Of a DNA stretch of 64,000 nt, positions 26,278 to 62,570 are shown in pieces. The notes beneath the pieces are model-generated. The model worked only from the letters and a program-made list of their open reading frames with translations, was not told where the DNA came from and searched no databases. A program made the translations under genes and the position numbers. The stretch is from Limnochorda pilosa (GTDB taxonomy: Bacteria; Bacillota; Limnochordia; Limnochordales; Limnochordaceae). The stretch is from NCBI RefSeq assembly GCF_001544015.1, contig NZ_AP014924.1, positions 2,542,001 to 2,606,000 on the forward strand, given 5' to 3'. Numbering within the stretch: the first letter of the stretch is position 1; every line of letters starts with the position of its first letter.

Positions 26278-27801
26278 TCAGTCGGCCAGCCGCCGCCGGA
26301 GGAGCTTGCCGGCCGCGTTGCGGGGCAGGGCGTCCACGAAGCGCACGTGGGCCGGCACCTTGTAGCCCGCCAGCCGCTCGCGGCAGAAACCGCGGATCTC
26401 TTCCTCGGTGACTCGGGCGCCGGGGCGGAGACGGACGGCGGCCAGGACGGCCTGGCCCCAGCGGGGGTCCGGAACGCCCGTGACGCCCGCCTCGAGCACG
26501 GCAGGGTGGGCCAGGAGGGCCGCCTCCACCTCGGCCGGGTAGACGTTCTCCCCGCCTGAGACGATCAGGTCCTCGCGGCGGTCCAGGACGTAGAGGTAGC
26601 CCTCGGGATCCAGGTAGCCCAGGTCGCCGGTGTGGAGCCAGCCTCCAGCCAGGGCCCTGGCCGACTCTTCGGGCCGCCGGAAGTAGCCTGCCATCACCGT
26701 GGGTCCCCGCACCGCGATCTCGCCGGGCTCCCCCGGGGGCTGGGGGCGGTCGTCCTGCTCGATGCGGAGCTCCACGCCGAAGAGGGGCCGCCCCGATGAG
26801 CCCGGCCGGCGGGGCGCCTCGCCCGGGGCCAGGGTCGTCACCTGGGAGGAGGTCTCGGTGAGGCCGTAGGTGGGGACGACGGGCATCCCCAGGCGCGCTG
26901 CGGCATCCAGCAGAGGCTGCGGGGCGGGGCCGCCCCCCACCAGCACCGCCCGCAGGCTAGGCGGGTAGGGGCGCCCGCCTCGGACCTCCAGCATCCGGGC
27001 CAGCATGGCGCTCACCACCGAAAGGAGCGTGGCACCCTCGACGTCGATGGCCCGGTGGACGGCGTCGGGGTCGAAGCGGGGCTGGAGCAGGGTCGGGATG
27101 CCGTAGATCACGCTGCGAAAGAGGATGGCCAGGCCGCCCACGTGGAAGAGGGGCATGGGGGCGAGCCACCGGTCGTCTGGGGAGAGGCCCAGGTTGAGGG
27201 CTGAGACCAGGGCGCTCCAGCCGTGGTTGCCGTAGGTGAGCTGGGCCCCCTTGGGCCGGCCGGTGGTGCCCGAGGTGTAGACGATGGTGTGGACGGCGGC
27301 GGGGTCAAGCTGGAAGCGGAGAGGCACGTCGGCGGGAGCCACGGCGTCCAGGCGACCGCCCCGGATCGCGGCCAGGCCAGGCAGGCGGGCGGCGATCGCC
27401 TCGGCCTGGGGGGCGCTGACCTCGTCGTAGAGGAGGAGCCGGGCCTCCACGTCCTTTAGCTGCCACACGAGCTCGGGGGCGGCCAGGCGAGTGTTCAGGG
27501 GCACCAGGACGGCCCCCAGCCGGCCCACCGCGTGCACCGCCTGGACGAAGAGGGGCCCCGGGGAGAGGAGGACCGCCAGGCGGTCACCCTCCCCCACGCT
27601 CAGCACGGCCAGGCGCCGGGCCAGGAGCGAGACCTCGCGGTCCAGCTCGCCGAAACTCCACGAGCGGCCCTCGAAGCGGAGCACCTCCCGTTCGGGCGTA
27701 TGCTCGGCTCGCCAGCGAAGCCAGTCCACCTCGGGCCAGATGGAAGCAGTCGTCCCCCTCACCCTCCCTTGGGCGGCGTCGGGCCGCCAACCGCGGCGCA
27801 C
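26278..27801 (-). CDS. menE: 2-succinylbenzoate-CoA ligase
   Basis: AMP-forming acyl-CoA synthetase, 507 residues. It has the P-loop-like YTSGTTGRPKGAQLTYGNH, the A5 motif PTYGLTETSSQV, the A7/A8 region LHTGDLGYLDPEGYLYVLDR, and the A10 Lys in PRNAAGKLLRRRL. MenE activates o-succinylbenzoate with CoA for naphthoate ring closure by MenB. It is the last gene of the men operon, starting at GTG 27801 six bases behind the menA stop. A second GTG at 27762 follows GGGAGG directly. The assignment rests on family and operon together. Confidence 0.93.
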   Translation of the reverse strand: MRRGWRPDAAQGRVRGTTASIWPEVDWLRWRAEHTPEREVLRFEGRSWSFGELDREVSLLARRLAVLSVGEGDRLAVLLSPGPLFVQAVHAVGRLGAVLVPLNTRLAAPELVWQLKDVEARLLLYDEVSAPQAEAIAARLPGLAAIRGGRLDAVAPADVPLRFQLDPAAVHTIVYTSGTTGRPKGAQLTYGNHGWSALVSALNLGLSPDDRWLAPMPLFHVGGLAILFRSVIYGIPTLLQPRFDPDAVHRAIDVEGATLLSVVSAMLARMLEVRGGRPYPPSLRAVLVGGGPAPQPLLDAAARLGMPVVPTYGLTETSSQVTTLAPGEAPRRPGSSGRPLFGVELRIEQDDRPQPPGEPGEIAVRGPTVMAGYFRRPEESARALAGGWLHTGDLGYLDPEGYLYVLDRREDLIVSGGENVYPAEVEAALLAHPAVLEAGVTGVPDPRWGQAVLAAVRLRPGARVTEEEIRGFCRERLAGYKVPAHVRFVDALPRNAAGKLLRRRLAD

Positions 27802-27806
27802 CCGCC

Positions 27807-28856
27807 TCAGGGCCGCCAGACGAGGGCCAGCCCCAGCAGGATCGCGAAGAGCAGGTGGAGCTGCCCCGTCCCCTTCAGCACCCGGTTGAGGTCGGGTCCC
27901 TCGCTGCCACCCAGGACCGTTCGGCTCAGGCGGTAGGCCAGGGGCAGGCTGAGGAGCGGCAGCCAGAAGAGGGACCCCATCCGTCCTGTGAGGCCCAGCG
28001 CCAGCGGGACCGCGTACGCCCCGGCCAGGAAGAGGACGTACTGGATCCGGGTGGCCCGGGCGCCGATGCGCACCGCGACGGTGCGCTTGCCCGCGGCCCG
28101 GTCGGTGGCGATGTCCCGCAGGTTGTTCACCACCAGGATGTCGGTGACGATGAAGGCCACGGGCAGCGCCAGAGTGAAGGCGACGGCGCCGGCCTCGCCC
28201 GTGTGGAGGTAGTAGGTGGTCACCACGGCCACGAGCCCGAAGAAGATGAAGACGAAGAGGTCACCCAGGCCGTGGTAGCCCAGGGGCCAGGGCCCGCCCG
28301 TGTAGAGGATCGCGCCGGCGATGCTGGCCATCCCCACGGCCAGGATGGGCCATCCCCCCGCCCAGACCAGGTAGAGGCCCACCAGGAAGGCGAGGCCCAG
28401 AGTGACGGCGGTGCCCGCGGCCACCTCCCGCTCGCTCAGGAGGCCGGCCTGGGTGACCCGGACCGGCCCCGTCCGCTCCGTGGTGTCGGCGCCCCGCTTG
28501 AAGTCGAAGAGGTCGTTGGCCAGGTTGGCGCCGATCTGGATCAGCAGGGCGGCCACCAGGGCGGCCAGCAAGACGACCGGGCGGAAGCGGCCCTCGCCCA
28601 GGGCGGCGGCGCTGGCCACGATCACCGGCGCCACCGAGGCGGGCAGGGTCAGGGGACGGGCGGCGTGGATCCAGACGCCCAGCTTCGAGCCCGGGGCCGG
28701 GGCGGGGATGCCGGGCTCGGAGCCCGGTGGCGGGCCACCCGGCCGGCCGCCGGGCGCTGGGGGCCGGCTCGGGCTACGGACGATCGTGGCCGGGCGCACC
28801 CTACGGGAACCGGGGGAACTTGGAGAAATCGGGCTTCCGCTTCTCGAGGAAGGCAT
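27807..28856 (-). CDS. menA: 1,4-dihydroxy-2-naphthoate polyprenyltransferase
   Basis: UbiA-superfamily membrane prenyltransferase that joins a polyprenyl chain to dihydroxynaphthoate. It has eight to nine hydrophobic segments and the Asp-rich site [16 protein letters not shown] second site reads [17 protein letters not shown]. At 349 residues it is longer than usual, with a Pro/Gly/Ser-rich N-terminus of about 55 residues. ATG 28856 overlaps menB by 56 bases but has AAGGAGG six bases upstream inside menB. GTG at 28799 is an alternative with no such site. It lies between menB and menE. Confidence 0.9.
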
Positions 28857-29619
28857 TGCGACCCTCCTTTGCTTCTTCGGTCAGGTAGAAGAGGAGCGTG
28901 GCGTCGCCCGCCAGCTGCTGGAGCCCCGCCAGCCCGTCGGTGTCGGCGTTGAAGGCAGCCTTCAGGAAGCGGAGGGCCGTGGGGCTCTTCTGGAGGATCT
29001 CCTCCGCCCAGGCCACTGTCTCCTCCTCCAGCCGGTCCAGGGGGACCACGGCGTTCACCAGGCCCATCTCCAGCGCCTCCCGCGCCGAGTAGCGGCGGCA
29101 GAGGTACCAGATCTCCCGGGCCTTCTTCTGGCCGACGGTACGGGCCAGCAGCCCGGCGCCGTAGCCTGCGTCGAAGCTGCCCACCTGGGGGCCCGTCTGG
29201 CCGAAGACGGCGTTCTCTGCGGCGATGGTGAGGTCGCAGACCAGGTGGAGCACGTGGCCGCCCCCGATCGCGTACCCGGCCACCATGGCGATGACGGGCT
29301 TGGGCAGGGTGCGGATCTGCCGCTGCAGGTCAAGGACGTTCAGGCGGGGGATCTGATCGTCGCCCACGTAGCCGCCGTCGCCCCGCACCTTCTGGTCGCC
29401 GCCGGAGCAGAAGGCCTCCTTCCCTTGCCCCGTGAGGATGACCACGCCGATGGAGCGGTCGTCGCGGGCGGCGGCGAAGGCGTCCATCAGCTCCATGACG
29501 GTCTGGGGCCGGAAAGCGTTCCGCACCTCCGGGCGGTTGATGGTGATCTTGGCGATGCCGCCGTGGGTCTCGTACCTGATGTCGGTGTACGGCCGGGCCG
29601 GAGTCCAGGTGATGCTCAC
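28801..29619 (-). CDS. menB: 1,4-dihydroxy-2-naphthoyl-CoA synthase
   Basis: Crotonase-fold enzyme of 272 residues, the standard MenB length. It closes the second ring of the naphthoate. It has [61 protein letters not shown] and the C-terminal [15 protein letters not shown] typical of MenB rather than general enoyl-CoA hydratases. GTG at 29619 has GGAGG nine bases upstream. It lies 25 bases downstream of menH. The conserved C-terminal codons contain the ribosome binding site used for menA's upstream start. Confidence 0.96.
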
Positions 29620-29644: not shown

Positions 29645-30601
29645 TCATCTCGTCGCGTCCTTCGTCTCGCGTCCCTCGTCCAGGAAGGCCCGCACATGCC
29701 GGGCGAAGATCCCTGGTTGCTCCAGGTGAACGGCGTGGCCTGCCTCGGGAACCACCTCCGCTCGGGCCCGGGGCAGACGGGCCGCCATGCGGGCCGCCAG
29801 GGCCGTGAACTTGGGGTCGAGCGCGCCCGCCAAGAGAAGCGTGGGAGCCTCCACCTCCGGCAGGCGGCTCCAGAGGGGCTCGTGCACGCCCGTCCCCATC
29901 CCCCGCAGCGAGGCGGCCAGGCCCTCGGCCCGGCAGGCCAGGCGCTGGCGGCGCTGGCGGCGCCAGACCTCGGGCGGCAGCCGCCGCTGGCTGGCGAAGA
30001 GCGGCTGGGCCTCCCAGCGTTCGACGAAGGCCCGGATCCCCGCCCTCTCGATGAAGGCGGCCCGTGCCTCGTCCTGGGCCCTGCGGGCGCTGCGCTCGCG
30101 GGGGTCTTCCAGCCCGGGCGAGGCACTCTCGAGCACCAGGGCGCTCACCCGCTCTGGATGGGCCACCGCCAGGTAGAGCGCCAGGCGACCGCCCATGGAG
30201 TAGCCCAGCACGTCGGCCCGGTCCACCCCCAGCCGATCCAGGACGGCCAGGAGGTCTGCAGCCTGGCGCTCGATCCGGTGGCGCTCGGCCGCCGGAGCCC
30301 GGGGGTCCACCACCCGGGAGGCGCCGTGCCCGAGCAGGTCTGGGGCGATGACCTCCCGCCCGGCGGCCAGCTCCGGCAGCAGGGGGCGCCAAACGGTGGC
30401 CCGCCCCGTGAAGCCGTGGAGGAGCAGCAGGGGCCGGGCGGGGTCCCGGAGCGAGTGCCGGGCGGGGCCGGAATCCAGCCTTTGGCCGGAACCCGGTGGG
30501 CTTCCACTCCCCTGGTGCTGCGAGGTCGGCGCCGGCGGGCCCGCCAGCTCCACGTGGATGCGGGCGCCTTCCCGGGTGAGGGTGCGATGGCGCACCGTCA
30601 T
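29645..30601 (-). CDS. menH: MenH-like alpha/beta hydrolase (SHCHC synthase)
   Basis: 318-residue alpha/beta hydrolase: oxyanion segment [14 protein letters not shown], nucleophile elbow [15 protein letters not shown], late acid in [11 protein letters not shown] and His in [13 protein letters not shown]. MenH eliminates pyruvate from the MenD product. ATG 30601 overlaps the menD stop as ATGA and has GGAGG ten bases upstream. An insert of Pro/Ser-rich residues (about 22-50) separates the first strands. Position between menD and menB supports MenH rather than a generic esterase. Confidence 0.88.
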
Positions 30602-32493
30602 GGACGGGCTACCTCCAGGATGGGCGCCACGGCCGCCTCCACCCGCCGCCAGGCCTCCCGGTGCAGGGCGGCGTTCCGTTTCCGCTCGCTGCGGACCTCC
30701 ACCACGGTGAGCGCTCTCTCCTCCAGGCCCGTCCGCACCGCCTCCCGGAAGGCCTCCCAACCCGCTGGTCGCAGGAGACGACCGCCGTACATCTCCACCG
30801 CGGGCCGGAAGTCCAGGCCCGTGGGCGTGGCGAAGAGGGGCTCGAAGGCGTCGCCCAGGGTCGCCTGGGGCAGGAAGGAGAAGATGCCGCCCCCGTCGTT
30901 GTGCAGGAGCACCACGGTGAGGGGGATCCGGTGGAGCCGGGCGGCCAGGAGCCCGTTCAGGTCGTGGTAGAGGGAGAGGTCGCCCAGCACCAGCACCGCC
31001 GGGCCGTCACCGCCTCCGGCCGCCGCCCCCAGGGCGCTGGAGACCACGCCGTCGATGCCGCTCGCGCCCCGGTTGGCCAGGACGCGCACCCCCGCCGCGC
31101 CCCGGTGGAAGGCGTCCAGGTCCCGGACGGGCATGCTGTTCCCCGCGAAGAGCAAGGAACCCTCGGGCAGGAGCGACGCGAGCTCGGCGAAGACCCGGCC
31201 CTCGAAGAGCTCCCCGGGCTCCGGCGCGTGCACGGCTTCGGCCAGGGCCCCGGCGCTCGCCTCCTCCAGCCGCCGCCACATCTCCAGCCAGGGCGTTTCC
31301 GCTCGGTCGGAAGCGCCGGTCCAAGGGCGCTCCGGCACTCCCAAGGGATCCAGGGCTCGGGCGGGGTCCGCCGCCCCTTCTCCGGCTGAGAGGGCGGCCG
31401 TCAGCTGCTCCGCCAGGCGCCGGGGCTCGGCCCAGACCATACGGGTGGCGGTCTGGGCCGGGTCTCGCCAAGCGGGCGCCTCGTCGACCACCCACTGGGG
31501 GACGCCGGCGTGGTGCTCCAGGAACTGGCCCAGCACCTTGGAGACGGGCGCCGCGCCCAGCCGGAGGACCCCACCGGGCGCAAGGCGCTCGAAGGCGCCC
31601 GGGACCCGGAGGAAGGCGTCGTACGTGGTGATGCGCGGGGCGGCCTCCTGCCCGCCACCCGCGGGGCCCTGGCGGAGCTGGCTCAGGGGGTCCGCCAGCA
31701 GGGGCCAGCCCAGGCGCTGGGCGAGCCGGGCCACCGGGCCGGCCAGGGACGGGTCGTCCTGGGGGCCCACCACCACCAGCCCGCGCCGGACTGCGAGGAG
31801 CTCTTCTGCCAGGGAGGCGATGGCTTCGGGCTCCAGGGAGCGCCGCCCCGCCTCCACCCGGATGCCTCCGAGGGTCGCGGCGGGGGCGTTCCGGGAGGCC
31901 AGGCCTTCCTCCCCCGGACCGGCCGCGGGCGGCCTCGGGATGAGGGGCTCCCGCAGCGGCAGGTTCAGGTGGACGGGGCCGGCGGGGGCCTCCCGGGCCA
32001 GGGCGGCCGCCCGGGCCCCGGTGGCCTGGGCATGGCGCACCATCCGGGGAGAGCCCTCGGGCAGGGGCAGCTCGAGGGACGCCTTGGCGTGGGGGCCGAA
32101 GAGGCCCACCTGGTCGATGGTCTGGGGTGCGCCCACCTCCCGCAGCTCGCGGGGGCGGTCGGCCGTCAGCAGCACCAGGGGGACGCGTCCGTAGCGGGCC
32201 TCCGCCACCGCGGGGTGGAGGTTGGCCGCGGCGGTGCCGGAGGTGACCAGCACGGCCACCGGCTCCCCCAGGGCCCGGGCCATCCCCAGGGCGAAGAAAC
32301 CGGCGGAACGCTCGTCCACGTGCTGCCAGAGCCGAAGGTTCGGGGTTCGATGGGCCGTGAGCAGGACCGGCGTCGAGCGGGAGCCCGGGCAGAAGACCAG
32401 GTGGTGCACGCCCGCTTGGACCAGCGCCTCCATCAGGGCGCTCAGGTAGACGTGGGCCGCCTCAGGAGTCCCGGCGGCTTCCCAGGCGTTCAC
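30598..32493 (-). CDS. menD: 2-succinyl-5-enolpyruvyl-6-hydroxy-3-cyclohexene-1-carboxylate synthase
   Basis: ThDP-dependent MenD, 631 residues. The N-terminal domain has FCPGSRSTPVLLTAHR, HVDERSAGFFALGMARA with the catalytic Glu, and TSGTAAANLHPAVAEA. The C-terminal domain has NRGASGIDGVVSSALGAA, VLGDLSLYHDLNGLLAA and LLHNDGGGIFSFLPQA. It joins isochorismate and 2-oxoglutarate. GTG 32493 overlaps the menF stop as GTGA and has GGAGG seven bases upstream. It is longer than typical MenD (about 550-580) owing to insertions in the central domain. All core motifs are intact. Confidence 0.97.
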   Translation of the reverse strand: MNAWEAAGTPEAAHVYLSALMEALVQAGVHHLVFCPGSRSTPVLLTAHRTPNLRLWQHVDERSAGFFALGMARALGEPVAVLVTSGTAAANLHPAVAEARYGRVPLVLLTADRPRELREVGAPQTIDQVGLFGPHAKASLELPLPEGSPRMVRHAQATGARAAALAREAPAGPVHLNLPLREPLIPRPPAAGPGEEGLASRNAPAATLGGIRVEAGRRSLEPEAIASLAEELLAVRRGLVVVGPQDDPSLAGPVARLAQRLGWPLLADPLSQLRQGPAGGGQEAAPRITTYDAFLRVPGAFERLAPGGVLRLGAAPVSKVLGQFLEHHAGVPQWVVDEAPAWRDPAQTATRMVWAEPRRLAEQLTAALSAGEGAADPARALDPLGVPERPWTGASDRAETPWLEMWRRLEEASAGALAEAVHAPEPGELFEGRVFAELASLLPEGSLLFAGNSMPVRDLDAFHRGAAGVRVLANRGASGIDGVVSSALGAAAGGGDGPAVLVLGDLSLYHDLNGLLAARLHRIPLTVVLLHNDGGGIFSFLPQATLGDAFEPLFATPTGLDFRPAVEMYGGRLLRPAGWEAFREAVRTGLEERALTVVEVRSERKRNAALHREAWRRVEAAVAPILEVARP

Positions 32494-34034
32494 TGGGCCG
32501 CCTCCTCGAGGGCGGTGAGGAAGGGGCGCAACTTGAGCCGCCACTCCCGGACCTCAGCCTCGGGCCGGGAACCGCCCACGATGCCGCAGCCGGCGAAGAG
32601 GTCGGCGCCGTCTTCCCGCAGGAGCCCCGAGCGGATGGCGACCGCGAAGGCGCCGTTCCCTGCCGGGTCGACCCAGCCGATGGGGCCCGCGTACCAGCCC
32701 CGGTTCCACCCCTCCAGCGCCCGCACCAGCCGGAGCGCTTCTTCCCGCGGCGAGCCGCCTACGGCAGGCGTGGGATGGAGCTTCTCCACCACGTCCAGGA
32801 GCCCCGTGCCCGGGGCAAGGCGCCCCCGGAGGGGCGTGTGCAGGTGCTGCACCGTGGGCAGGCGCAGCAGCCGGGGCTCCGGGCTCACCTCCAGGATCTC
32901 GGTCAGGGGAGAAAGACCCTCGCGCAGGGCGTCCACCACGGCCTGGTGCTCCTCTCGCTCCTTGACGCTCTCCAGGAGCCCCCGGCCCAGGCGGTCGTCC
33001 TCGGCCGGCGTCTCGCCCCGGGGTGCGGAACCGGCCAGGGCCATGCTCTCCACCCAGCCGTCCCGCACCCGCGCCAGGAGCTCGGGCGAGGCGCCGAGGA
33101 AGGTGGCTCCCCCCAGGTCCAGCGCGAAGTGGATGGCACGGGGGTTGGCGGCAGCCAGAGCCGCCAGGACCCGGGCGGGGTCGAAGCCGCCCGGCCGGTG
33201 TACCCGCACGGCTTGGGCCAGCACCACCTTCCGCACCCGGCCCCGGCGCACCGCCTCCGCGGCCGAGGCCACCGCGCGCATCCAGGGCTCGGGGGCGGGC
33301 TCGTGCACCGCCAGGGCGCCCGTGGTTGCGTGAGGCGCCCCGCTGGCGCCGGGGGGAACCGCCCGAGGGGCCACGAGGAGGTGCAGGGCCTTTCGGGCGA
33401 GGCGACGGGCGATCTCCTGCGGGTCGTCGCCGGGCTCGACCCAGGCGTTCAAGGTGAGCCAGCCCTCGTCCCCGCGGGAGGTGACCAGGGCCTCCGGCAG
33501 GATCAGGAGCCCACCGGGAAAGCCGTGCCACGGCTCCTCGTCCGGTGGGTCGAACGCGAATCCACCCAGGAAAAGGGGGCCGGTGCCGGGAACCGCGGGG
33601 CCCTCCGTCACCGCCCTTTCGGACAGACGCCTCCACCCTTTCCGCGTCGTGTGGAAGGCGCCGGCACCCTCCCCGCGCAGAGTCTGAACCGTCCCCGCGC
33701 CCACCAGGGTGAGCCGGGCGCCGCCCAGGCCCTCCGCGTGCAAGAGCTCGCTCCAGAAGAGGCGTACGCCGCCGGGTGTGGCGGAACGGGTCAAGAGGAC
33801 GAGGGGGTCCTGGGCGGGGATGGCCGAGACCCAGCTCGCGAGCAGGGGTTCCCCCCGCTGCCCGGCCTCCGCGATCGCCCGGCTCAGGAAGGCCTCCAGC
33901 CGGCCCACCTCGACGGGGGTGGCCGCCGGATGGACGCGGACCTGTCCGGTGCCAGCGTAGCTCCCGCCCGTGGGCTGCATCGGAACGGTTTCGCTGGCCG
34001 CCGGGGCCGTGGATCGGCCGCGGGACGCGATCAT
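32490..34034 (-). CDS. menF: Isochorismate synthase
   Basis: Chorismate-binding family enzyme, 514 residues, that converts chorismate to isochorismate and commits it to menaquinone. The C-terminal domain shows RVRKVVLAQAVRV, FLGASPELLARV, ALAGSAPRG, EREEHQAVVDALREG, HLHTPLRGRL, LHPTPAVGG and FAGCGIVGGSRPEAE, the usual order. ATG 34034 is preferred; a GGGAGG lies 12 bases upstream. A TTG at 34061 has no binding site. It is the first gene of the men operon, with a promoter and inverted repeat immediately upstream. Confidence 0.94.
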   Translation of the reverse strand: MIASRGRSTAPAASETVPMQPTGGSYAGTGQVRVHPAATPVEVGRLEAFLSRAIAEAGQRGEPLLASWVSAIPAQDPLVLLTRSATPGGVRLFWSELLHAEGLGGARLTLVGAGTVQTLRGEGAGAFHTTRKGWRRLSERAVTEGPAVPGTGPLFLGGFAFDPPDEEPWHGFPGGLLILPEALVTSRGDEGWLTLNAWVEPGDDPQEIARRLARKALHLLVAPRAVPPGASGAPHATTGALAVHEPAPEPWMRAVASAAEAVRRGRVRKVVLAQAVRVHRPGGFDPARVLAALAAANPRAIHFALDLGGATFLGASPELLARVRDGWVESMALAGSAPRGETPAEDDRLGRGLLESVKEREEHQAVVDALREGLSPLTEILEVSPEPRLLRLPTVQHLHTPLRGRLAPGTGLLDVVEKLHPTPAVGGSPREEALRLVRALEGWNRGWYAGPIGWVDPAGNGAFAVAIRSGLLREDGADLFAGCGIVGGSRPEAEVREWRLKLRPFLTALEEAAQ

Positions 34035-34090: not shown

Positions 34091-34112
34091 ACAGACCGAC
34101 GGGTCGGTCTGT
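34091..34112. promoter_or_regulatory. Perfect inverted repeat (TetR-type operator candidate)
   Basis: Ten-base arms ACAGACCGAC and GTCGGTCTGT are separated by GG. The repeat begins eight bases downstream of the men -10 element, so it covers the start of transcription. The ACCGAC..GTCGGT core is typical of TetR-family operators. No tetR gene is seen nearby. Confidence 0.65.
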
Positions 34113-34120
34113 CGCGAAAC

Positions 34121-34149
34121 AGTATAGGCGCGCCCTTCCGCGCCGTCAA
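34121..34149 (-). promoter_or_regulatory. Sigma-A promoter of the men operon
   Basis: On the minus strand TTGACG (34149-34144) and TATACT (34126-34121) are separated by exactly 17 bases, near the vegetative consensus. It lies about 90 bases upstream of the menF start. Confidence 0.8.
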
Positions 34150-34299
34150 CGGATGCCCGCGCGGCACCCCGCGTGCCTGGCGTCGACCCCCACCGCTTCG
34201 GCGGCACTGCCGCGCCACCAGGCACCGCCTTGCCACCAGGGAAGGGCCCCGGGCGCGGTGAAGGGAGAAGGAGAGGTGGACGAGCGGGAGGTGGCGCAC

Positions 34300-35277
34300 G
34301 TGAGGCGGACGGGGAGCGCAGGTGGGCCGAGGGGACTCCGTCTCTTCTTGGCCCTGTGGCTCGCGGCGATCCTGATGGTGGCCCTGGGGGGTGCCGCTCG
34401 GGCCCAGGCGCCGGTGCCGGTGCAGCCCATCATCGATGCGGACAACGGCGTGCTCGGGGCGGAGCTCTTCGCCGGCGCCGGCCGCGCCGAGCTTTTCGGC
34501 GGTGGCGGGTACGGCCTCTTCACCGGGAGCTTCCACTACCGGGCCGGCGTCACCCTGGGCGCCCTGCGCCACCGCCTCACCATGGCGTACCAGGACTGGC
34601 CGGGCAGCCTCGTGCTGGGGCGGGAGGGCCAAACGGGCGCCTCTCTTCGCTGGACCCTGAACCCCACCTTCGGCGCCAGGGTCACGCTCACCGGCTTCCA
34701 GGGCCGTCTTTGGCCGCTGGAAGCCGAGGGGTCCCAGGGGCCGGAGGTGTGGCTGCTGAGCACCGAGGCCTCGTACCGCCTGCGCCTGGGCGGCCCCTGG
34801 CTCCTTACGCCCGGCCTCACCTCGGTGTGGGGCCGTACCCTGGACTCGGGGACCACCTTCACCAGCCACCTGGCCACGGCGAGGCTGCGGCGGGGCTGGA
34901 CCGGCCTGCAGGTGGCCGGCGGCACCGCCCGGAGCAACGGCTTCCCCGGCTGCTTCTGGCGCCTGGGCGGGGGCGGCAAGGTGCCGCTGCGGGGCTATCC
35001 GTCCGAGTATCGCACGGGCGAGTGGCTCCTGGCGCTGAGCCTCGAGCACCGGGTGCCCCTGCCCCTCGACCTGCGGTTGGCCCAGCTCCAGCTCGCCTTC
35101 TTCGCGGACGCGGGCGACGCCCTCGGGCCGGACCGCCGCTGGGAGGACCTGAACCTGGCCGTGGGCTACGGCACGGGCCTGGTGGTGGCCACGGCCCTGG
35201 GCGAGCTCCACGCGGACCTGGCCTGGAACACCCAGGGCGAGCTGACGCCGGCCGTCTGGCTGAGCGCCCCTTTCTAG
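34300..35277 (+). CDS. Omp85/BamA-like outer-membrane beta-barrel without POTRA domains
   Basis: 325 residues. A signal peptide (GLRLFLALWLAAILMVALGG, then AARAQA) is followed directly by alternating beta-strand sequence. The C-terminal half has VPLRGYPSEYRTGEWLLALS, LEHRVPLPLDLRLAQLQLAF, FADAGDA and a terminal LSAPF. This follows the end of Omp85 barrels: the RGY loop motif, the FADAGD strand and a final Phe. The usual N-terminal POTRA repeats are absent. GTG 34300 has GGGAGG eight bases upstream and begins the signal peptide directly; earlier starts lie in the same frame. It is divergent from the men operon and converges with the AmlC-like gene. An outer-membrane channel or assembly role is inferred. 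Confidence 0.72.
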   Translation: MRRTGSAGGPRGLRLFLALWLAAILMVALGGAARAQAPVPVQPIIDADNGVLGAELFAGAGRAELFGGGGYGLFTGSFHYRAGVTLGALRHRLTMAYQDWPGSLVLGREGQTGASLRWTLNPTFGARVTLTGFQGRLWPLEAEGSQGPEVWLLSTEASYRLRLGGPWLLTPGLTSVWGRTLDSGTTFTSHLATARLRRGWTGLQVAGGTARSNGFPGCFWRLGGGGKVPLRGYPSEYRTGEWLLALSLEHRVPLPLDLRLAQLQLAFFADAGDALGPDRRWEDLNLAVGYGTGLVVATALGELHADLAWNTQGELTPAVWLSAPF

Positions 35278-54703: not shown

Positions 54704-54733
54704 TTGCCGCGCGAATGTGTGACCTGGTACAAT
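54704..54733 (+). promoter_or_regulatory. Promoter of the toxin-antitoxin pair
   Basis: TTGCCG (54704-54709) and TACAAT (54728-54733) are separated by 18 bases. The -10 overlaps an in-frame ATG at 54732, which shows that the antitoxin must start further downstream, at GTG 54765. Confidence 0.7.
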
Positions 54734-54764
54734 GACCATGGTTCTCGCCGGGGAGGTGACGCGC

Positions 54765-54998
54765 GTGGAGCCAAGCATCCCCAAGTCCAAGTTCAAGGCG
54801 CGTGCGCTGGAGTACTTTCGGAAGGTGCAGGAGACCGGCCAACCCATCATCGTCACCGAGCGCGGCAAGCCGGTCCTGCGCGTCGTTCCATACGTCCCCA
54901 GCAGCGATGAGGTCCTTCGGATCCTGCGCGGATCCGTCCTTGCGTACAACCGGCCGACCGAGCCCGTGGACGTCGACGCGTGGGAGTCCCTCGAGTGA
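54765..54998 (+). CDS. Phd/YefM-type antitoxin
   Basis: 77 residues. The N-terminal DNA-binding part (EPSIPKSKFKARALEYFRKV, then GQPIIVTERGKPVLRVVPY) is typical of Phd/YefM antitoxins. The C-terminal tail binds the toxin. GTG 54765 has GGGGAGG eight bases upstream. Its stop overlaps the toxin's GTG as GTGA, so the two are translated together. It binds its promoter, likely repressing the pair. Base composition is less G+C-rich than nearby genes, which suggests lateral gain. Confidence 0.88.
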   Translation: MEPSIPKSKFKARALEYFRKVQETGQPIIVTERGKPVLRVVPYVPSSDEVLRILRGSVLAYNRPTEPVDVDAWESLE

Positions 54999-55390
54999 TC
55001 CTCCTCGACACGCATGCATGGGTCTGGTGGCTCGGTGAGCCAGAATGCCTCTCGTCGGAAGCTCGTGAGCGCATCGAGCACGCCGCCTCGCAGAACGAGG
55101 TCTACGTCTCTTCCATCAGCGTCTGGGAGGTCGCGATGCTGGTGGAGCGAGGGCGGCTCAAGCTCGCCCTGGACGTGGGCGATTGGATCCAACACGCCGA
55201 GAGCCTGCCTTTCATCCACTACGTTCCGGTGGACAACCGGATCGCGTTTCGGTCTGTCACGCTGCCGGAGCCCTTTCATCGGGATCCCGCAGACCGCATC
55301 ATCGTCGCCACTGCGCTCATTCTCGGGGCCGATCTCACGTCCAAGGACGAGCGCATCCAAGCCTACCCATTCGTAAAGGCCGTGTGGTGA
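54995..55390 (+). CDS. PIN-domain toxin (VapC-like)
   Basis: 131-residue PIN-domain ribonuclease toxin. The acidic residues of the active site are in LLDTHAWVWWLGEP (Asp5), SSISVWEVAMLVERG (Glu), and HRDPADRIIVATALILGADL (Asp), followed by a late TSKDERIQAYP. GTG 54995 overlaps the antitoxin stop and has GGGAG eight bases upstream. It forms a stable complex with the upstream Phd-type antitoxin. It ends next to a decayed glycosidase gene. All expected acidic residues seem present, so it is probably active. Confidence 0.9.
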   Translation: MILLDTHAWVWWLGEPECLSSEARERIEHAASQNEVYVSSISVWEVAMLVERGRLKLALDVGDWIQHAESLPFIHYVPVDNRIAFRSVTLPEPFHRDPADRIIVATALILGADLTSKDERIQAYPFVKAVW

Positions 55391-57125: not shown

Positions 57126-57965
57126 TCAGCCCTTCACGCCGCCAATCGTCAATCCCTTGATGAAATACCGCTGCAAGGAGAAAAACAAGATCATCATGGG
57201 CAATGCAGCGAGTGCAGCCCCAGCCATTTGGAGTCCGTAATCAACCGTATTCTCCTGCTGGATTGTGGTGATCCCCACCGGCAGCGTCAGTTTAAGCGGA
57301 TCATTCAGCGCGATAAGCGGCCACAAGAAGTTGTTCCAGCTCCCTATGAAGGTGAAGATTGCGAGCACCGCCAGCGCCGGCGCAGCAAGTGGAACGATTA
57401 TCCGGGCATAGATGGTGAACGCTCCCGCACCGTCTATACGTGCTGCATCCTCCAGTTCCGAAGGGATGGTTTTGATAAACTGTCGCATCAGAAAGACGCC
57501 GAAGACATCAGCCATGGCAGGCAGAATAACGGCCGGTAGTGTGTCGATCAGGTTAACCCTGCTCATAATGACAAAGATGGGAACCAGCGTAACCTGCCCA
57601 GGAATGATCATCATGGAGATGATCACCCAGAAGAGCGGTTCCCGCCCCGGGAAACGCTTCTTCGCAAACGCATACCCCGCCATAGAATCAAATAGGACTA
57701 CTGATGTCGTGACGACGATCGCAACAACTGTGCTGTTGAGCATCCACCGCCAGATTGGGCTTGCCTGCATTAAGCGAACGAAGTTGTCCATTGTGGGAGG
57801 ATTGGGGTATAGCGAGGGCGGAAAGCGCAGGATGGACTCTTGGGAGACAAACGACGTGGAAAAGAGCCAGTACAGCGGTATGACCGCCACGATCGCCCAC
57901 AAGGTCAATATGATCAACACGATAGTCCTTCCCAAGTAGAACCGCAATCGACCAATCGCTGTCAC
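57126..57965 (-). CDS. Carbohydrate ABC transporter permease (MalG-like), low-GC set
   Basis: 279 residues with six helices. The EAA motif is ELEDAARIDGAGAFTIYARI and the C-terminus QRYFIKGLTIGGVKG. It is the third gene of a set with a MalF-like permease and binding protein. Base composition is plainly poorer in G+C than neighbouring genes. GTG 57965 has GAGG about 12 bases upstream, a weak site. It abuts the remnant of a different permease, so it may have replaced it. Substrate unknown. Confidence 0.93.
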   Translation of the reverse strand: MTAIGRLRFYLGRTIVLIILTLWAIVAVIPLYWLFSTSFVSQESILRFPPSLYPNPPTMDNFVRLMQASPIWRWMLNSTVVAIVVTTSVVLFDSMAGYAFAKKRFPGREPLFWVIISMMIIPGQVTLVPIFVIMSRVNLIDTLPAVILPAMADVFGVFLMRQFIKTIPSELEDAARIDGAGAFTIYARIIVPLAAPALAVLAIFTFIGSWNNFLWPLIALNDPLKLTLPVGITTIQQENTVDYGLQMAGAALAALPMMILFFSLQRYFIKGLTIGGVKG

Positions 57966-58020
57966 GGCTCAACACCGCCTCGACCAGGATCTTGGTCAAC
58001 TACCATGTCATGTTTGATAT

Positions 58021-58962
58021 CTAATACTCGATATCTTTAGAGAGCCATCGAAACTGTAGCACTGCCAAAGCCGCCACGATCAAGAAAAGGAGAACAGCTT
58101 CAGCGCTGGCTTTCCCGAAGTTGAAGAACCGAAATGCACTATTGTAGATCTCCGTTACAATTGTTGTAGTAGCGTTTCCGGGTCCGCCACCGGTCATCAC
58201 ATATACGCTCGTGAAGACCTGAAACGATCCGATGGTACTCATAACCACGATGTATAGCGTGGTTGGCATAACGAGTGGCACTGTAAGGCGCCACCACTGC
58301 TGTAAACCTGTTGCTCCGTCGATGTCAGCCGCCTCGTAGAGTTCACGGGGAATCCCGTTCATTGCAGCAAGATACAGGATCACACCCGAACCGGGGGGCG
58401 AGAGAAGCGCCATCAAGATGATGCTCCACAAGGCAACACTCGGTAGGATAAGCCACTCTACCCTAGACAGACCCAGCAGCGAGAGAGCATAGTTAAAGAG
58501 CCCATAGTCCGAATCGAATAACCACTTCCACGCCATCGCAAGAACCACGGCAGAAGCCACCGCCGGCAAATAGTAAGCGGCCCGGAAGAATGTTTGCAGG
58601 CGGTTGCCCAGCGGTTGAATGAGGCTCGCTAGCACAAGTGCAAGCATCACATTGCCAGGTACGGTTACCAGGGTATAGACAGCAGTATTGCGTAGCGCCC
58701 GCCAGAAGATTGCGTCACTCAGGATTTCCCGGAAGTTGTCGAATCCCACCCAGCTCGACTCAAGAGGCCCGACATTCTGGAAGGCCATACGCACGCCCAT
58801 GACCACGGGGGCGACAAGGAAGGCCGCAAAGAGTAGCATCTTCGGAAGGACGAACAGGTATCCTTCAAGCGCTTCACGCGTGGCATTCCGTTTCCATCGC
58901 GGGGCGGTCTGTGTTCCCGGCGTCGGCGGCGCAACTGAAACGGTGTTGTTCCCCATGGCCAC
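58021..58962 (-). CDS. Carbohydrate ABC transporter permease (MalF-like), low-GC set
   Basis: 313 residues with six membrane segments: GYLFVLPKMLLFAAFLVAPV at the start, EAA motif LYEAADIDGATGLQQWWRLT, and C-terminus RWLSKDIEY. It is the second gene of the low-G+C set. GTG 58962 has AAGGGA about ten bases upstream; ATG 58956 is also in frame. A hairpin lies between the binding-protein gene and this start. Codon use clearly favours A or T in third positions, which supports recent transfer. Confidence 0.92.
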   Translation of the reverse strand: MAMGNNTVSVAPPTPGTQTAPRWKRNATREALEGYLFVLPKMLLFAAFLVAPVVMGVRMAFQNVGPLESSWVGFDNFREILSDAIFWRALRNTAVYTLVTVPGNVMLALVLASLIQPLGNRLQTFFRAAYYLPAVASAVVLAMAWKWLFDSDYGLFNYALSLLGLSRVEWLILPSVALWSIILMALLSPPGSGVILYLAAMNGIPRELYEAADIDGATGLQQWWRLTVPLVMPTTLYIVVMSTIGSFQVFTSVYVMTGGGPGNATTTIVTEIYNSAFRFFNFGKASAEAVLLFLIVAALAVLQFRWLSKDIEY

Positions 58963-58995
58963 GTGGGATCGTTCCCTTCACGCAAAGGCCAAGGG

Positions 58996-59030
58996 CGTTG
59001 GGCTGTGGTCGCTACGACCCCAGCCCAGCG
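58996..59030. promoter_or_regulatory. Intergenic hairpin between binding protein and permease (low-GC set)
   Basis: The arms CGTTGGGCTG and CAGCCCAGCG pair outside, with GGTCG and CGACC inside. One T/C mismatch and a CTA loop complete a stem of 15 pairs, one of them a G-T. It lies between the binding-protein stop and the MalF-like start. Confidence 0.65.
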
Positions 59031-59075
59031 TCGTAGGCCTATGTTCGCTGAGCTTGTGCTCCTACTTCAACCTGC

Positions 59076-60383
59076 TTACTTGCCCAGAATCCGGTTTGCG
59101 GCAGTCTCAGCGTCCCTCATTGCCTGCTCGGCAGGGGCATTGCCGAGAATGGCTAGCTGGAAGAATGGAACGATAGCCCGGTCGGCCTCCAGCCAACTCG
59201 GCGCCACCGGTGGTATTACCAAGGTGGGCACCGCTTCACGCTGCGCCCAAGCAAGGTACTCGTCGTTTGGATAGATGTTCCCTACGGACTTTCGGCTTGG
59301 GAACACACCGTAGTTGCTCAGTGCTTTCTGGTTCTCAGGGCTCGTGATGAACCGGGCGAACTCCATGACTGCATCACGCTTTTCGGAGTTGGTCTGTTTG
59401 AAAACCACGAAGCCACCCACACCCTCATGCAGTGAAACGGGCCTACCCAGTTGGCCAATTGGGTAGTTTGCGATACCGAAGTTGAACCCGTTCCCCTCCT
59501 GAAGCGCCTTCTCGAGTGAGCGAATCAAGAACGTCCCCTGTGCCAGCATCGCGAGATGACCATCAGTGAACATCTTGGTCATATCGGCATCCGTTACGGA
59601 GCCCATCGCCAGGGGCGAGACCTTGTATCTCTGCACAAGGTCGACGAGCTTCCCCAGGCCGGACACACCCTCAGGTGTGTTCAGCATGAACCGCTTACCG
59701 TCTTCACTGACGAGTCTACCACCGTCGGAAAGCAGAATACCGAACGACTGGTAGTACCAGGGCTGCATGATTGCGCCGAACCCATACACTTGCTGCCCGT
59801 CTTCTCCCTTGAAGGTCAGCTGCCTGGCCTTTTCCACAAACTCATCCCAGGTCCAGTTGCCGTTCACAGGCGGTTGAACGCCACGTTCCTTGAAGATGTC
59901 GAGATTCAGGTAGATTACGTACGTTGTTGTGAACCAAGGCCATCCGTAAATACTCCCATTCACAGTGTACTTCTGTAACGCGGCGGGGTAGTAGTCGGCT
60001 TGGTCTGCATCGGAAAGATACGGGTCGACAGGTTCAAGAATGCCTTGGAGAGCCCACGTTGCTGGTTGCCCGCCTGAAACTAAATCGGGGAATCGACGAG
60101 CCATGATCGCCGTATTCAGCTTCGTCGTTGCATCCGCCCAACTCAGCTGCGTCAGGTCCACCTCTACGTCTGGGTGAGAAGCCTCGAACTCAGCAATCAT
60201 CTGCTTCTGCCATCCATAAACATCGCCATCCACGCTCCATGCCGGCGTAGACCACCAGTTGATGCTGATCCTTGCTGCCTCGGCCCTCGCCCCTGTGACA
60301 TTAACGGCGGAGATGAGCAACACGGCTGAAATCAGGGTCCTAAGGAGAGCAGACGGGTGCGAAGAAATATTCAACGCAGACAT
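59076..60383 (-). CDS. Extracellular sugar-binding protein, low-GC set
   Basis: 435 residues. A signal peptide (LLRTLISAVLLISAVNVTGA, then RAEA) precedes a CUT1 binding-protein fold: INWWSTPAWSVDGDVYGWQK, DLVSGGQPATWALQG, GWPWFTTTYVIYLNLDIFKE, SLEKALQEGNGFNFGIANYP, and late FARFITSPENQKALSNYG. It has no lipobox. ATG 60383 has GAAAGG directly upstream, while TTG 60374 has it nine bases upstream and may be the true start. It is the first gene of the low-G+C set. Ligand unknown; the YGWQK region does not identify one. Confidence 0.9.
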   Translation of the reverse strand: MSALNISSHPSALLRTLISAVLLISAVNVTGARAEAARISINWWSTPAWSVDGDVYGWQKQMIAEFEASHPDVEVDLTQLSWADATTKLNTAIMARRFPDLVSGGQPATWALQGILEPVDPYLSDADQADYYPAALQKYTVNGSIYGWPWFTTTYVIYLNLDIFKERGVQPPVNGNWTWDEFVEKARQLTFKGEDGQQVYGFGAIMQPWYYQSFGILLSDGGRLVSEDGKRFMLNTPEGVSGLGKLVDLVQRYKVSPLAMGSVTDADMTKMFTDGHLAMLAQGTFLIRSLEKALQEGNGFNFGIANYPIGQLGRPVSLHEGVGGFVVFKQTNSEKRDAVMEFARFITSPENQKALSNYGVFPSRKSVGNIYPNDEYLAWAQREAVPTLVIPPVAPSWLEADRAIVPFFQLAILGNAPAEQAMRDAETAANRILGK

Positions 60384-62545: not shown

Positions 62546-62570
62546 GGGCAGGCCGGCGTCCGGCCTGCCC
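62546..62570. promoter_or_regulatory. Intergenic hairpin between binding protein and permease (third set)
   Basis: Perfect 11-base arms GGGCAGGCCGG and CCGGCCTGCCC with a CGT loop. It lies between the binding-protein stop (62636) and the permease start (62446). It probably raises binding-protein mRNA over permease mRNA. A run of C and T follows on the plus strand only. Confidence 0.7.

Follow-up and report, generated by a model that had tools for sequence, protein, structure and literature searches.

Results

Conservation of the palindrome at the men promoter

A stretch of Limnochorda pilosa DNA (NCBI RefSeq assembly GCF_001544015.1, contig NZ_AP014924.1, positions 2,542,001 to 2,606,000; 64,000 nucleotides, hereafter the window) contains a near-consensus promoter accompanied by a perfect inverted repeat in front of the menaquinone (vitamin K2) genes, and the question raised by this locus is whether the repeat is the operator of a TetR-type repressor, as the initial annotation proposed, and, if so, of which one. 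The features of the locus are as follows:

34144..34149, - strand, -35 hexamer TTGACG
34121..34126, - strand, -10 hexamer TATACT
34091..34112, no strand assigned, predicted operator, a perfect 10+2+10 inverted repeat with the conserved core AGACCGACnnGTCGGTCT at 34093-34110
32490..34034, - strand, menF, isochorismate synthase (ATG at 34034, start chosen by eye; TIGR00543, 326.5 bits; Pfam Chorismate_bind)
30598..32493, - strand, menD (start chosen by eye; TIGR00173, 449 bits)
29645..30760, - strand, menH (longest frame, start uncertain; TIGR03695, 249.6 bits)
28801..29610, - strand, menB (TIGR01929, 442 bits)
27807..28856, - strand, menA (TIGR00751 and NF004751)
26278..27801, - strand, menE (TIGR01923, 379 bits)

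All NCBIfam matches listed are above cut-off, and the six genes together form a classical men operon in the order menF-menD-menH-menB-menA-menE. The two hexamers, separated by 17 nt, match the consensus at 10 of 12 positions and constitute the only promoter-like hit on either strand between 25000 and 40000 (1 found, shuffle mean 0.1), while terminator-like hits in the same analysis were no more frequent than expected (4 found, 3.5 expected). The palindrome ACAGACCGAC-GG-GTCGGTCTGT is the only match to its pattern in the window at up to 3 mismatches (expected 0.00). The observation of the initial annotation was thus confirmed, with one small correction: the repeat had been described as covering the expected start of transcription, but 8 nt separate it from the -10 hexamer, so that it runs from about +2 or +3 onward and the expected start lies at its edge.

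The length of the repeat alone means nothing in this 71% GC DNA, as perfect repeats with arms of 10 or more and loops of 0-6 occur twice in the window against a mean of 1.75 in 20 shuffles; what counts is its place at the promoter, since only 3 of 3000 shuffles of the 131-base promoter stretch hold such a repeat, and its conservation. The longest repeat of this kind in the window is a perfect 11+3+11 inverted repeat between genes at 62546-62570. An Omp85-like gene (34238-35277, start uncertain) is divergent from menF, and a gene occupies the same divergent place in the related genome G001 (locus L069, 6012-7028, - strand); whether the operator also affects it is not known. Elsewhere in the window, three genes at 57126-60383 that look by eye like an ABC sugar transporter have a third-position GC of 0.63-0.68 against about 0.9 in most other genes, and were probably acquired recently, and a small gene pair at 54732-55390 looks by eye like a toxin-antitoxin pair with a PIN-domain toxin.

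In the window genome as a whole (G000, contig C1), the core GACCGACnnGTCGGTC occurs twice, once at the men promoter and once (C1:653076) inside a coding frame. Four of its five one-mismatch places also lie inside coding frames, whereas the fifth (C1:2716636) lies outside the frames that we called. At 2 mismatches this short pattern gave about as many hits as its reversed control (87 against 83), and loose scans were therefore dropped. The longer operator pattern, AGACYGACnnGTCRGTCT, occurs at 1 mismatch or fewer only once in this genome, at the men promoter.

A TetR protein linked to the proposed operator in the class

To investigate whether the repeat is conserved upstream of men genes in relatives, the absence of which had been put forward in advance as grounds for rejecting the TetR reading, 60 genomes of the class (the window genome included) were examined. 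Thirteen have a MenF match at E below 1e-70; weaker matches were taken for paralogs such as anthranilate synthase, a cut of our own that was not tested. Twelve of these 13 carry one particular TetR protein (E 1e-30 or better), and all 12 have the operator before menF or before tetR-menF: nine exact, G012 with 1 mismatch (on a contig with only the first half of menF), and G003 and G009 with 2. The thirteenth, G024, has only a distant TetR (31%) and no operator. In G002, G005, G008, G013, G015 and G020 the tetR gene directly precedes menF and the operator precedes tetR, its 18-base core lying 6-11 nt after the -10 of a TTGACn-17-TATnnT promoter. Fifteen of the 60 genomes have a site at 1 mismatch or fewer, and in three of these, the other relatives G016, G023 and G029, it lies before exporter-like genes (named by eye), so that the site is not unique to this family; one more site in G020 was not examined. 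The repeat is thus conserved where it was expected, and the interpretation of the initial annotation, a TetR-type repressor acting on the men genes, is supported.

The window genome has ten TetR_N matches, nine of them over the cut-off. The menF-adjacent TetR of G005 finds the protein at G000:C1:3108744-3109355 at 48% identity and the next TetR of this genome at 29%; this ortholog is 44-49% identical to the six menF-adjacent proteins and carries an N-terminal TetR_N domain (PF00440, G000:C1:3109158-3109298, 64 bits over a cut-off of 24). It lies 0.5 Mb away from the window, directly downstream of a menG-type methyltransferase gene, and the earlier statement that the regulator gene is not nearby is therefore right for this genome. 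A TetR gene with the same site in its own promoter had also been named as something to look for. None is found in the window genome, where no site with 3 or fewer mismatches occurs in the 18 kb around the ortholog (locus L068), so that the regulator is probably not controlled by the same site here; such genes are found, however, in the six tetR-menF relatives, and in G003 and G009, which have a further one-mismatch site before tetR itself.

The regulator family on two menaquinone pathways

A pattern-based scan of 84,980 species genomes with the TetR alignment found 274 relatives, of which the best 80 loci were kept. Forty-seven of these share 42% identity or more with the query, while the next has 34%; six of the 47 were judged to lie in genomes already counted (L124, L127, L133, L134 and L137 in G013, G015, G008, G002 and G020; L111 in G001). 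Loci L023, L024 and L215-L222 were not analysed. The 47 family loci, from several bacterial phyla, comprise 17 on the men pathway (L113 shows menD and menB, but menF was not found there); 17 on the unrelated futalosine pathway (mqnE-mqnC with mqnD, or mqnL with or without mqnP-ubiX, or an mqnA-like gene, or, in L149, mqnD alone); six beside an ABC transporter; the four loci L153-L156 (three with another ABC transporter, L155 too short to tell); L111 beside menG; L146 with a menG-like gene 3 kb away; and L128, which is unclear. Representative proteins pass the NCBIfam cut-offs for MqnL, MqnE, MqnC and the MenG/UbiE and UbiX subfamilies, and Pfam for the MqnA/MqnD family (L147). The MqnP-like protein passes only the general UbiA-like model and the protein that we call MqnD in L126 gave no NCBIfam hit, and the remaining genes were assigned by tblastn likeness to these or by eye.

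Of the 47 loci, 38 have the site: 21 exact, 9 with 1 mismatch, 4 with 2 and 4 with 3. Twenty scrambled palindromes gave 1 hit in total at 1 mismatch or fewer over the same 548,082 bases, against 30 real, and 33 control loci of other TetR proteins (414,930 bases) contained one site at 1 mismatch (L175). Nine loci (L111, L146, L148, L149, L150, L153-L156) show no site at 3 mismatches or fewer, although L111 and L150 have one elsewhere in their genome, before menF and mqnE.

The operator alone was then searched in the whole genomes of 25 of the 47 loci. Twenty-four have a match at 1 mismatch or fewer, 29 sites in all, whereas the reversed control pattern gives 17. All 19 exact sites lie at a family tetR, men or mqn promoter, as do 25 of the 29; of these, 20 were already known to us (one of them in G084, probably the same genome as G001) and five are second sites that only this search revealed. 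Four of the five precede mqnE-like and mqnA-like genes with an MqnC match close by (G061, G062, G065, G079; the MqnC of G079 is just below cut-off), and one precedes mqnD- and mqnE-like genes (G066). Of the remaining four sites, one, on G066 C1, was not examined, two lie in what reads by eye as a coding frame (G081, G082) and one in a terminator-like hairpin (G076).

Forty-nine sites were compared (11 from the class, 33 from the family loci without the five duplicates, and the five second sites). Eight of 16 arm positions are invariant, which is partly circular as the sites were picked at 3 mismatches or fewer. By a lenient rule, promoter-like sequences lie within 60 nt upstream in 41 of 49 (mean 5.0 and maximum 11 in 200 shuffles), and the -10 ends 1-13 nt before the site in 35 of those 41 and 15-24 nt before it in six, so that a block of transcription initiation is the natural reading.

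In a quick tree of 76 TetR proteins, from which four TetR rows of the window genome were left out, the 59 family rows form one side of a branch (SH-aLRT 91), a result not to be trusted too far given the long outgroup branches. Men and mqn labels require at least 5 changes, or 7 with the transporter type, rows outside these three types not being counted. In one group of five, supported at 99, L141 and L145 (men) stand with L139, L144 and L147 (mqn).

An ABC transporter where the ring pathways were not found

In L120, tetR is followed by an NMT1-type binding protein, an ATPase and a permease, with a MenA gene on the other strand (Pfam and NCBIfam). L125 and L135 look the same, L123 has tetR and a binding protein before the contig ends, L121 likewise, and L162 has the binding protein upstream (by eye and, except for L123, by sequence likeness). 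Genomes G067, G070, G073 and G083 (L120, L125, L135 and L162) have MenA over the cut-off but no MqnC/MqnE (E 1e-40), MqnA/MqnD (E 1e-3) or MenD (E 1e-20) match and no MenB over its cut-off, though weaker MenB-like matches occur in three of the four; in these bins of unknown completeness, no ring-making enzyme among those searched was thus found over cut-off. G068 (L121) is the same except that its MenA match is below the cut-off. L112 (G060, 1.4 Mb) combines tetR-mqnL-mqnP-ubiX with the same kind of transporter, and it too lacks these early genes over cut-off, and MenA. The binding proteins of L112, L120, L125, L135 and L162 are 32-71% identical.

The different NMT1-type transporters beside the more distant family TetR genes of L153, L154 and L156 were set apart, because the genomes of L153 and L156 (G081, G082) have mqn genes and the L154 binding protein is only 22-26% identical to the others, apart from a 29-residue piece at 31%; they are unexplained. 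However, the binding protein of L121, which we keep in the transporter type, is also only 25-29% identical to the rest.

Predicted structure of the regulator

A model of the L111 protein, which is 85% identical to the ortholog of the window genome, is a confident all-helical TetR fold with HTH and ligand-binding core (pLDDT 90.7, nine helices), and the best PDB hits are TetR-type regulators. The closest solved relatives by sequence and fold are Bacillus FadR proteins, which bind acyl-CoA (rank 1 TM-scores 0.86 and 0.89, 22% identity). The three family members scanned nevertheless fall below every NCBIfam cut-off shown, including those of Bacillus FadR (NF053878; 85.4 bits for L111, 75.1 for L126 and 60.5 for L112, cut-off 200) and of the ScbR-type autoregulator receptor (NF041196; 89.8, 73.7 and 68.4 bits, cut-off 150).

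Discussion

With high confidence, we propose that the palindrome is the operator of a TetR-family repressor dimer encoded in trans next to menG (G000:C1:3108744-3109355), which, bound just downstream of the -10, would block transcription of menFDHBAE. In this view the regulator belongs to a distinct TetR clade found in several phyla whose targets are menaquinone supply: the men operon, the futalosine (mqn) genes, or an ABC transporter. While the site, the promoter geometry, its conservation and co-occurrence with the TetR protein, the clade and the neighbouring genes rest on sequence, binding, repression and the signal are inferred, as neither DNA binding nor expression nor the ligand was measured. 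The two pathways share only chorismate, the prenyl donor, and demethylmenaquinone or menaquinone, so that CoA-bound men intermediates are unlikely signals; the likeliest signal is the end product or its redox state, keeping the repressor on DNA when the pool is full.

Among alternative explanations, chance in GC-rich DNA, where about two palindromes of this length are expected per window, is ruled out by conservation before men and mqn genes in several phyla. It is also unlikely that the repeat works as an RNA hairpin at the 5' end of the men mRNA, as a stabiliser or attenuator. A 9-bp stem does form in the leader, and among the 49 sites, read on the sense strand, departures from perfect pairing are mostly wobbles at three arm pairs, 5/14 (17 T-G against 4 C-A), 2/17 (13 G-T against 2 A-C and 1 G-A) and 7/12 (5 G-T, none broken), although the reverse holds at 1/18 (1 G-T against 7 A-C and 1 A-A). 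A symmetric DNA site gives no reason for this bias, and since only 8 of the 17 and 6 of the 13 come from one Chloroflexota clade (men-type, within L116-L143), shared descent explains it in part only. However, the leader folds no better than shuffles (z -0.9; 37 of 200 shuffles at least as stable), no Rfam family matches, the eight invariant arm positions are conserved in letters and not only in pairing (partly circular, the sites having been chosen by similarity), and in 13 of 41 sites the repeat begins 1-3 nt after the -10-like hexamer, so that part of the left arm would not be transcribed; moreover, the site tracks a TetR gene.

The site could alternatively belong to another TetR regulator of the window genome, for example L060 or L056, both of which have related GACC/GGTC motifs near their starts. 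L060 (1385-1460, C1:about 2453100) has a near-consensus promoter with the palindrome TCGGTCG-TT-CGACCGA and is followed by a membrane protein that looks by eye like an RND-type exporter. That the site belongs to one of these is improbable, as the motifs (TCGGTCG-TT-CGACCGA; ACCGACCGTTTGGTAGGT) have, by eye, another layout and the menG-linked TetR is the ortholog of those found beside the site in relatives. Finally, the repressor may be right but sense a long-chain acyl-CoA as FadR does, tying quinone supply to lipid state rather than to menaquinone. The FadR-like fold would be consistent with this, but we consider it doubtful given the scores below the FadR cut-off and because no fatty acid gene was recognised among the targets, by likeness and by eye; the recognised neighbours are men, mqn and transporter genes, but not every neighbour was classified, which leaves control of fatty acid degradation genes undecided.

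More tentatively, a single TetR family might be a transcriptional sensor of the menaquinone pool that stayed in place while the machinery beneath it was exchanged: men operon, futalosine genes or, where both pathways are absent, an NMT1-type ABC importer bringing in the naphthoate ring precursor (DHNA where MenA is kept, the 6-naphthoate where MqnP and MqnL are kept). This would amount to a menaquinone sensor and an importer for a menaquinone precursor found by regulon logic. Import of a ring precursor is our inference, the genomes seen here are metagenome bins of unknown completeness, and NMT1-type proteins carry many substrates; the quinone uptake pathways of a quinone auxotroph have been called yet to be identified (PMC10746273), and the loci described here point to a candidate.

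Few dedicated transcriptional regulators of menaquinone level are known to us. A regulator and operator conserved on two unrelated pathways narrows the signal to a few shared molecules and lets the operator be used as a probe for further menaquinone genes. Described controls of menaquinone synthesis, which likewise keep quinone supply in check, include feedback of DHNA on the enzyme MenD and global regulators, Crp or CcpA, at men promoters (PMC12421875); our incomplete searches of open-licence papers showed no dedicated TetR regulator of men or futalosine genes. Bacillus FadR (PDB 3whb, 3whc, 5gp9) is, like the proposed regulator, a TetR repressor of a metabolic regulon, but is only 21-24% identical in the fold search, and its TGAATGA-type operators and fatty acid targets differ. 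The operators of the TetR-family proteins QacR, LmrA and PfmR, which were not tested here, have GACC/GGTC-type palindromes near promoters, but these proteins control efflux or phenylacetate/fatty acid genes and the layout differs. The target genes themselves are ordinary members of the classical men and futalosine pathways, and what is new is one regulator family and operator serving both.
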